In this document: in pieces, positions 8,805 to 11,035 of the stretch
How the letters are laid out: every line of letters begins with the position of its first letter
Numbering within the stretch: position 1 is the first letter of the stretch
NCBI RefSeq assembly: GCF_019039035.1
Contig: NZ_JAHNZT010000006.1
Coordinates: 1 to 64,000, forward strand
Length of the DNA: 64,000 bases
Reading direction: 5' to 3'
Source of the DNA: Citreicoccus inhibens
GTDB lineage: Bacteria > Myxococcota > Myxococcia > Myxococcales > Myxococcaceae
Notes under the pieces: generated by a model
The model's input: only the letters and a program-made list of their open reading frames with translations
The model's database searches: none
What the model was told of the DNA's origin: nothing
Position numbers and translations under genes: made by a program

Positions 8805-9245
8805 TCAGCCGCGTCCCACCGCGGTGATGAACACCCAGCGAGCGCCGTCGCGCAGCACCATCAACCGGATGCGCACGTCGCGCCGGCCCCACTCGAACTC
8901 GAAGCGGAAGTCGAAGCTCTCCGTCACCTCGCCGCCCTGCGCCGCGAGCGCGTCCAGCCGGCCTCGAAAGGCGGCGACGTCCGTGCAGGGCGCCACCTCC
9001 TCGAAGAAGCGACGGCCCAAGGTGCGCTGCGGCGAGCGGCGGGACTGGGCCGCCTCGGCCGCGTTGAAGGCCACCACGCGGCCCTGCGCATCCAGTTTGA
9101 TGGCCCCGAAGGGCAGTCGATCGAAGTCCGACTCCGACATGCCTCGGAGGACCTCCTCCGTCAGCGACTCGGCGTCGACCACCCGGTGCCCTCCGCGTGC
9201 GCCAGCCTCGAAGGCGGCGCCGGGAGTTGTCGTCGTGCGCGACAT
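8805..9245 (-). CDS. pyp: photoactive yellow protein (PYP) homologue, single PAS domain
   Basis: A single-domain protein of 146 residues that aligns without gaps to Halorhodospira PYP over its core with a constant offset of 18. Visible in order: the N-cap like 'SLTEEVLRGMSESDFDRL', 'FGAIKLD', 'NAAE' (61-64), 'LGRRFF', 'EVAPCTD' (84-90), and a C-terminal beta sheet ending 'ARWVFIT'. The chromophore cysteine (PYP Cys69) is Cys87, the buried proton donor Glu46 is Glu64, and Arg52 is Arg70. PYP Tyr42 is Phe60 and Thr50 is Ser68. PYP binds p-coumaric acid and senses blue light; whether this one binds it is untested, since related PYP-like PAS domains could use another ligand. Enzymes for p-coumaryl-CoA are not seen here. 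It is convergent with the SDR gene and lies downstream of a hypothetical gene, near carF. Confidence 0.82.
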   Translation of the reverse strand: MSRTTTTPGAAFEAGARGGHRVVDAESLTEEVLRGMSESDFDRLPFGAIKLDAQGRVVAFNAAEAAQSRRSPQRTLGRRFFEEVAPCTDVAAFRGRLDALAAQGGEVTESFDFRFEFEWGRRDVRIRLMVLRDGARWVFITAVGRG

Positions 9246-9353
9246 GCCCGCGATTATCCAGGAGGCCGTGGGTGCTCGGTCAAAGCCGGCCCACGGCGCA
9301 TCGACCAGAACCGGACATCCGCCGCGCGAGGCCAGGACCGCGCGCGGCGGGGA

Positions 9354-9935
9354 CTACTGCTCGCCCTCGCCAGCGAGGTAGCTGAGGATGACCTCGTCGA
9401 GGCTCTTCTCGGAGATGAGGTCCTCGCCGAAGAGCGTCTCCACGCCCACCTCGTTGATCTTCGGCTTCTCCTTGAGGGCTCGCGCCGCGGCCACCTCGGG
9501 AGGCAGCAGGAACACGGGCGCCGCGGGAGCCACCGGCTGGACCTGCGGGGGCGGGGGCGGTTGGGGCTTGGGGGGAGGAACGGGAGCAGACGGGAGCCGG
9601 GCCTGCGCTTGATCCGCCTCGCTGGCGAGTTGCCCCGGCTGGTAGTGCCGCGCCGTGGACTCGTAGCTGTCGTAGACCCCGTTGATGAGGTTGCGCAGCA
9701 TCTCCTTGTGCTGCTCCTCCATCAACTCACGAACGACCTCCGCCAGATTCTCCGCATTGAGGATGTCGGCGTAGGAGGTCTTCTTCGACGCGAGGATGTT
9801 TCCACCCACGAACAGGTGGGTGATGATGTGCGGGTTGTTGACACCCGAGTCCTCGGTCTGGACGTGGTAGACCTTCCCCTTGTGCTTGATGTTGTGGTTG
9901 AAGCCGGTGACGGCTTTCTCGAAGGTTTTCGCCAT
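9354..9935 (-). CDS. conserved hypothetical protein with N-terminal 'HVQTEDSG' domain
   Basis: I do not recognise a characterised family. The protein has 193 residues. Residues 1-75 are a compact conserved domain with 'NHNIKHKGKVYHVQTEDSG' and 'ITHLFVGGNILASKKTSYAD', which looks beta-rich. Residues 76-105 are helical ('ELMEEQHKEMLRNLINGVYD'), a Pro/Ala/Gln-rich linker occupies about 125-160, and a short conserved C-terminus 'FGEDLISEKSLDEVILSYL' follows. No signal peptide or membrane helix is present, so it should be cytoplasmic. ATG 9935 was preferred because the domain starts with it; the frame upstream is low in complexity. The C-terminal peptide may be a docking motif. It precedes the PYP gene by 108 bases on the same strand and is divergent from carF. 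Confidence 0.75.
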   Translation of the reverse strand: MAKTFEKAVTGFNHNIKHKGKVYHVQTEDSGVNNPHIITHLFVGGNILASKKTSYADILNAENLAEVVRELMEEQHKEMLRNLINGVYDSYESTARHYQPGQLASEADQAQARLPSAPVPPPKPQPPPPPQVQPVAPAAPVFLLPPEVAAARALKEKPKINEVGVETLFGEDLISEKSLDEVILSYLAGEGEQ

Positions 9936-10115
9936 TGCCGAGGGGGGCACCGTAGCAGCGGGGGTGTGACGGCACAAGGTAAGCATCACGCGCATTTCGC
10001 GCGCGTCGCGTGCCTGCCCGCCCCTCCCTTCCGTCCGCGCGCCGCGGCGGCACCACGCAGGCCGCCCTGTCGTCCAGCAACCGGGCCAGCGGCACGCGCA
10101 TTGAAAAGCTAAAAG

Positions 10116-10140
10116 CGGCTGGGGTACGTACAACCAGCCG
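10116..10140. promoter_or_regulatory. nested palindrome upstream of carF, candidate operator
   Basis: Arms CGGCTGG (10116-10122) and CCAGCCG (10134-10140) flank an internal 8-base palindrome GTACGTAC (10124-10131). A -35-like TTGAAA lies at 10101-10106, so the palindrome would overlap a -10 region. The element ends 40 bases before the carF start. It resembles a repressor site, but no regulator for it is identified and a leader hairpin is also possible. Confidence 0.45.
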
Positions 10141-10180
10141 GGACCCGTTACCCACGCGGAAGGCACCCAGGGAGCCACGG

Positions 10181-11035
10181 ATGACGAAGGACAAAGCGCT
10201 CACCAACAAGGTGCGCCTGCAGGACGCCCAGGCGCTGGCGGAGGGATACTCGCCGGCCATCCGCGCGATGGAGATCAGCGCCATCGTCGGGTTCATCGGA
10301 CTGGAGGCGTTCCTCGCGTACCGGCTCTCCGGGTCGCCGCACCATGGCCCATGGATGCTCCTGAGCGCGGTGCTCCTGGGCTACATGGCCGCGGACTTCG
10401 TCTCCGGCTTCGTCCACTGGATGGGCGACACGTGGGGCTCCACCGACATGCCGGTGCTCGGCAAGGCGTTCATCCGCCCGTTCCGCGAGCACCACGTCGA
10501 CGAGAAGGCCATCACCCGCCACGACTTCGTCGAGACCAACGGCAACAACTGCCTGGTGTCCCTGCCGGTGGCGGCCATCGCCGTGGCCCTGCCCATGACG
10601 AGCCCGGGCTGGGTGTTCATGGCCAGCTTCCTGGGCGCGATGATCTTCTGGGTCATGGCGACCAACCAGTTCCACAAGTGGTCACACACGGACGCGCCGC
10701 CCGCGATCATCGGCTTCATGCAGCGCGTGCACCTCATCCTGCCGCCCGCGCACCACCGCATCCACCACACGGCGCCCTTCAACAAGTACTACTGCATCAC
10801 CGTGGGCTGGCTGAACCGGCCGCTCCAGATGGTGCACTTCTTCCCCACGCTGGAGCGGATCATCACCCGGGTCACCGGCCTGCTGCCCCGCCAGGACGAC
10901 ATTGGCGCCGAGGCCGCCCAGGCCATCGTGGAGGCCAATGTCACCACCGACGCCCCCGTGGTGCAGGCGGCCCGCGAACTCCTGAAGGCGACGACCGAGG
11001 AAGCCCCCCCGGTCCCCACGCGCCCCTCGACCTGA
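10181..11035 (+). CDS. carF: CarF, plasmanylethanolamine desaturase (TMEM189/PEDS1 family)
   Basis: Membrane desaturase that introduces the vinyl-ether double bond of plasmalogens. In M. xanthus CarF is required for light-induced (singlet-oxygen) carotenoid synthesis, and human TMEM189 is its orthologue. At 284 residues it matches the known length. Hydrophobic segments lie near 30-50, 58-80, 124-140 and 145-162. The His-rich motifs expected to bind the di-iron centre are visible: 'FVHW' (His79), 'FREHHVDEKAITRHD' (104, 105, 114), 'NQFHKWSHT' (165, 169) and 'PPAHHRIHHTAPFNKYYC' (191, 192, 195, 196). ATG 10181 has GGGAG upstream and the frame before it is unsupported. It is divergent from the hypothetical/PYP pair and convergent with murI. 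Confidence 0.95.
   Translation: MTKDKALTNKVRLQDAQALAEGYSPAIRAMEISAIVGFIGLEAFLAYRLSGSPHHGPWMLLSAVLLGYMAADFVSGFVHWMGDTWGSTDMPVLGKAFIRPFREHHVDEKAITRHDFVETNGNNCLVSLPVAAIAVALPMTSPGWVFMASFLGAMIFWVMATNQFHKWSHTDAPPAIIGFMQRVHLILPPAHHRIHHTAPFNKYYCITVGWLNRPLQMVHFFPTLERIITRVTGLLPRQDDIGAEAAQAIVEANVTTDAPVVQAARELLKATTEEAPPVPTRPST

Follow-up and report, generated by a model that had tools for sequence, protein, structure and literature searches.

The open reading frame at positions 8805 to 9245 of the window, the 64,000-nucleotide stretch of soil-bacterium DNA analysed here, encodes, as its sequence and modelled fold show, a genuine member of the photoactive yellow protein (PYP) family within the PAS superfamily. 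We consider it probable that this protein is a small and soluble blue-light photoreceptor of PAS fold with a predicted p-coumaroyl-cysteine chromophore, that its gene (pyp) possibly has its own promoter, and that the nearby carF is a bystander. The features on which the argument draws are these:

4118-6875, minus strand: envC-like gene (4118-5410), ftsX (5233-6135) and ftsE (6132-6875), a conserved block lying directly after romY in relatives that lack pyp
6897-8774, both strands: lineage-specific insert between pyp and ftsE, with a LysR regulator (6897-7904, minus) and an SDR gene (8004-8774, plus)
8805-9245, minus strand: pyp, single-domain photoactive yellow protein of 146 amino acids, PYP domain at about residues 29-141
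8985-8987, minus strand: codon of Cys87, equivalent to PYP Cys69, the chromophore thioester attachment site (alignment and direct sequence reading)
9042-9044, minus strand: codon of Ser68, at the position of PYP Thr50, a spectral tuning residue (alignment; tuning trend from PMC12826048)
9054-9056, minus strand: codon of Glu64, equivalent to PYP Glu46, the chromophore hydrogen bond and proton donor (alignment)
9066-9068, minus strand: codon of Phe60, at the position of PYP Tyr42, a natural Y42F (alignment)
9253-9283, minus strand: candidate pyp promoter, TTGACC-N19-GATAAT, its end 7 nt upstream of the ATG
9319-9350, minus strand: GC-rich hairpin immediately downstream of the romY stop codon, with no U-run (z -0.85)
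9354-9935, minus strand: romY, MglB GAP co-activator and motility polarity regulator (conserved RomY N-terminal domain, NF053858, 135 bits against a cut-off of 50)
10181-11035, plus strand: carF, plasmanylethanolamine desaturase (CarF / PEDS1; NF045946, 561 bits against a cut-off of 500)

The protein and its chromophore pocket

In a phmmer comparison with PDB sequences, the pyp product matched the PYP domain of Rhodospirillum centenum Ppr best (E 1e-20) and the PYP of H. halophila at E ~2e-19, and significant matches were PYP chains throughout. The alignment spans residues 26/29 to 141 and thus takes in the PYP N-terminal cap. An AlphaFold2 model has a mean pLDDT of 82.5, exceeding 90 in the core and falling below 50 over residues 1-20, the N-terminal 20 amino acids being predicted to be disordered; when this model was compared with the PDB by Foldseek, the top 40 matches were all PYP, and other PAS domains appeared only from rank 41. 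Sequence search and predicted structure together indicate that the similarity is not due to chance. The score against the NCBIfam equivalog TIGR02373 (photo_yellow) is 95.8 bits (E 1.9e-27), less than the curated cut-off of 143.05, so the protein falls outside this narrow equivalog, which catches just ~20% of PYP homologues (PMC9664959).

The preliminary description of this DNA was right in calling the product a PYP, since phmmer, predicted fold and pocket residues agree. Its constant offset of 18 from H. halophila PYP is exact (Cys87 = C69, Glu64 = E46, Arg70 = R52), and its alignment of the N-cap is borne out by phmmer coverage from residue 26/29. The H. halophila reference sequence in this alignment was verified via key residues. 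Purifying selection on the protein is shown by dN/dS values of 0.20 against the congener G055 and 0.20-0.37 overall; by the same measure selection is weaker than on romY or carF, and pyp evolves faster than its neighbours.

The H. halophila residues C69, E46, N43, F62, V66, A67, P68, F96, W119, G29 and I31 are retained, and C87, E64 and P86 are invariant across nine relatives in clade A, the closest orthologues. The alignment also places Phe60 at Tyr42, Ser68 at Thr50 and Trp119 at Met100, three replacements that the preliminary description did not mention; apart from Tyr42 the pocket is intact. Cys69, which carries the p-coumaroyl thioester, is the defining PYP residue (PMC9664959). Tyr42 or its natural variant Phe42 is common in the family yet not defining, and Phe60 is a minority variant: a survey of 984 PYPs found Phe at position 42 in 8.9% and Tyr in ~91% (PMC12826048). 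Arg52 is not diagnostic, because the family consensus at position 52 is Leu (same survey). In clade A only the window's genus has Phe42; g7, g19 and G092 have Tyr. The equivalent of position 50 is Ser in the window PYP and Ala in G055, so the two proteins should differ in spectrum. PYPs with Ser at this position absorb near 434 nm.

Chromophore binding and supply

In the mechanism that we propose, trans-p-coumaric acid would be bound as a thioester on Cys87, and its phenolate would be held by Glu64 and, given that Tyr42 is replaced by Phe60, perhaps also by Ser68. Blue light would then drive a cycle in which the chromophore isomerises, Glu64 gives up a proton and the protein partly unfolds. 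The loss of Tyr42 counts against this explanation, as Y42F perturbs H. halophila PYP. In that mutant the hydrogen bond is made by Thr50 instead (PMC9664959) and absorption near 446 and 400 nm is retained (PMC12826048, PMC9664959); by analogy, Ser68 could supply the hydrogen bond here. The natural F42/S50 pair, with F42/A50 in G055, lends itself to testing what holds the chromophore when Tyr42 is missing.

No TAL or pCL gene adjoins pyp. The HutH of the window genome (G000) has a Ser-His loop. A second MIO lyase of the genome, at G000:C57, has R. sphaeroides TAL (2o6y, 1.8e-72) as its best PDB match; it scores below the NCBIfam TAL cut-offs and carries a His-Leu selectivity loop, which we take to be of the tyrosine ammonia-lyase type. 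This gene adjoins an AMP-dependent ligase and ketosynthases in an aryl-polyene/flexirubin-like cluster. As a separate observation, the pigment-like cluster (L062, ~8000-18645) comprises the TAL-like lyase, the AMP ligase, ketosynthases and an acyltransferase/glycosyltransferase. From their sequences, the TAL-like gene and AMP ligase could supply the PYP chromophore. Orthologues of the lyase occur in only 6 of the 145 genomes of the order, and the His-Leu type is absent from most other clade-A genomes (G097, G120, G076-G079), so that the g7 and g19 relatives must obtain their chromophore by a different route. PYP and a His-Leu TAL coincide in G000, G055 and G092, plus G042 with a class-2 PYP, an overlap spread over too few independent genera to be weighed.

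The absence of Tyr42 and of adjacent chromophore genes raises the alternative that the PYP fold has been kept and light sensing lost, leaving an apo PAS domain or one that binds another ligand. We regard this as unlikely. The replacements F60, S68 and W119 and the relatively fast evolution of pyp are in its favor, although Cys69 and Glu46 are invariant throughout clade A and Tyr42 is kept in the sister genera. The lack of a neighboring TAL or ligase also fits it, but pyp operons in general include TAL in only 5% of cases and a ligase in 32% (PMC12826048), and the window genome does possess a TAL-like gene and an AMP ligase.

The protein has no output domain, so that, as the blue-light photoreceptor that we favor, it must signal through a non-covalent partner. 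In most myxobacteria that have them, PYP is paired with phytochrome (PMC6126659), and many other core Myxococcaceae encode one to three phytochrome (PHY) domains. No PHY domain was detected in G000 or G055, the genomes of the window's genus, which makes convergence with a phytochrome pathway unlikely there; contrary to the usual myxobacterial pairing, PYP in this genus stands without phytochrome.

Gene order and candidate partners

The single gene between pyp and carF, previously described as hypothetical, is romY. In M. xanthus, RomY acts at the lagging pole, where it boosts the GAP activity of MglB, and it determines how often cells reverse; conservation of the romY locus is reported to be only partial, with none of the genes flanking it previously connected to motility (PMC9481161). 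Here romY lies upstream of pyp on the same strand across a gap of 108 bp. The hairpin in this gap is no stronger than shuffled sequences, and G055, G120 and G077 have hairpins of different sequence at the equivalent position (z -2.5, -3.3 and -2.3). Both hexamers of the candidate pyp promoter are kept in G055, with a different spacer. A scan for sigma-70 promoters and Rho-independent terminators found no match at pyp/romY; the 19-nt spacer is outside the scan consensus of 16-18 nt, so the promoter, and with it separate transcription, is something we infer from the sequence. Transcription of pyp apart from romY is thus possible, and from this promoter, so close to the ATG, the message would be leaderless.

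Among the 145 genomes of the order that were compared, romY is found in 134, carF in 100 and clade-A pyp in 9. In the core Myxococcaceae genera carF and romY are adjacent and divergent, in an ancestral arrangement, envC-ftsX-ftsE-romY<>carF-murI, that persists whether or not pyp is present. The ftsE-romY gap measures 17-136 bp in seven genomes lacking pyp and 549-611 bp in G076-G079, where it holds pyp alone; in G120 and G097 it holds pyp plus a further insert of ~1.6 kb, and the LysR/SDR insert is restricted to the window's genus (G000, G055). Most other g19 genomes examined have ~1.6 kb in the gap and no pyp, and G043 has 4.2 kb, which indicates that the gap accepts genes. The gap (window 6875-9354; also L082-L089 and L092) is a recurrent insertion spot.

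The pyp gene was either inserted or retained in this gap, which belongs to an old block of housekeeping genes. On a tree of flanking genes its presence requires at least four changes by parsimony, a count that independent gains at one site and a single gain with many losses both fit. PYP identity is ~72% to g19 and 65% to g7, against 79% and 70% for carF, and this graded divergence in step with carF favors vertical descent, that is, an old presence with repeated loss. The clade-A PYP of G092 is on a contig without romY, and a search of the phylum found no clade-A PYP outside the family.

One candidate for the partner of the proposed photoreceptor is the RomY-MglB-MglA system, with which that explanation is compatible, as only the signalling partner is at issue. 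Light-activated PYP would alter RomY or MglB GAP activity and thereby reversal frequency, so that blue light would reset front-rear polarity in some myxobacteria. We consider this unlikely. Although romY is the immediate upstream neighbor on the same strand in every linked clade-A genome, and in g7 pyp stands alone between romY and ftsE, this adjacency may go back to a single ancestral event and have been passed on by vertical descent within a stable block, and in G092 the two genes are on different contigs. The hairpin and the possible promoter also separate them. RomY does set reversal frequency (PMC9481161), and PYP is tied to motility elsewhere, through H. halophila photophobia (PMC5812497) and fusions to MCPs (PMC12826048); romY is nevertheless nearly universal without pyp, and no other pyp-romY link of independent origin turned up, class-2 PYPs being located elsewhere. 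No residue in RomY, FtsE, FtsX, CarF, MurI or EnvC tracks the presence of pyp. RomY/MglA polarity is a candidate by position only, but it is the most testable partner. How free-standing PYPs relay their signal has been an open question for many years (PMC9664959, PMC12826048), and pyp here lies directly beside the gene of a well-defined regulator whose effect is simply read out as reversal frequency. If true, this proposal would identify a motility partner downstream of a free-standing PYP.

The preliminary description had instead suggested that PYP and CarF take part in a joint light response. It gave the distance correctly, carF starting at 10181, 936 bp from the end of pyp at 9245, and its naming of carF is upheld by the NF045946 score. 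Linkage of the two genes, which it proposed as a check, is kept in seven genomes and in one more whose contig ends inside romY; the flanking genes are equally linked, ~15 kb around the pyp site being syntenic across the linked genomes, so that linkage is expected from the stability of the block and carries little information. That PYP modulates plasmalogen or carotenoid signalling is therefore very improbable despite this conserved proximity and the links of both proteins to light, since the carF-romY adjacency is ancestral and independent of pyp, carF diverges from romY and pyp and shares no operon with them, the distributions of the two genes differ as given above, G092 (a MAG, 93% complete) has pyp with no carF detected, and the CarF pathway of M. 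xanthus, where the light sensor is protoporphyrin IX with singlet oxygen (PMC8156234), works in an organism reported to have no PYP (PMC11832031). We rejected a joint response as unsupported by gene order and distribution, which matters because experiments would have gone to carotenoids. Separately, carF matches in several g19 genomes (G106, G115-G119) contain one in-frame TAG, probably because the alignment passes a shorter C-terminus.

Comparison with known systems

The preliminary description said that PYP function in myxobacteria was, to its knowledge, not established; myxobacterial PYPs as such are already in the literature (PMC6126659, PMC9664959, PMC12826048). Myxococcota account for 9.7% of 984 PYP homologues (PMC12826048), the origin of PYP has been proposed to lie in this phylum (PMC9664959), and Stigmatella aurantiaca has a PYP whereas M. 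xanthus has none (PMC11832031, PMC6126659). The window pyp thus adds to a well-documented set. The available text of four PYP papers (PMC12826048, PMC9664959, PMC11832031, PMC6126659) makes no mention of a romY, carF or ftsE neighborhood.

Class-2 myxobacterial PYPs (L071 5235-5753, L073 7538-8053, L079 6906-7412, L074 7042-7908) have F42, E46, C69 and I52. In several genera a conserved acyl-CoA-thioesterase-like gene (MTQMILPPDANNLNAAFGGKVM..., identified by eye) lies beside them, a curious neighbor for a protein with a thioester chromophore.

With H. halophila PYP the window protein shares the PAS/PYP fold, Cys69, Glu46, Arg52, the N-terminal cap and a single-domain architecture. It differs in sequence (~32% identity in a structure-based alignment; Y42F, T50S, G51R, M100W and a longer N-terminus), in having no adjacent TAL/pCL and in its nonphototrophic host. 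The PYP domain of R. centenum Ppr (1mzu), its best sequence match, likewise has Ser at position 50 (PMC12826048), but Ppr is fused to a phytochrome and a histidine kinase, whereas the window PYP is free-standing in a genome without detectable PHY. The other myxobacterial PYPs, such as those of Pyxidicoccus fallax (G097) and MAG PMV_1 (G092), belong to the same clade at 58-92% identity, and those of g7 and g19 occupy the same ftsE-romY site; they differ in keeping Tyr42 and lacking the LysR/SDR insert, and the G092 copy is not beside romY. The locus itself has the envC-ftsX-ftsE-romY<>carF-murI order of the Myxococcaceae, here with pyp in the ftsE-romY gap.
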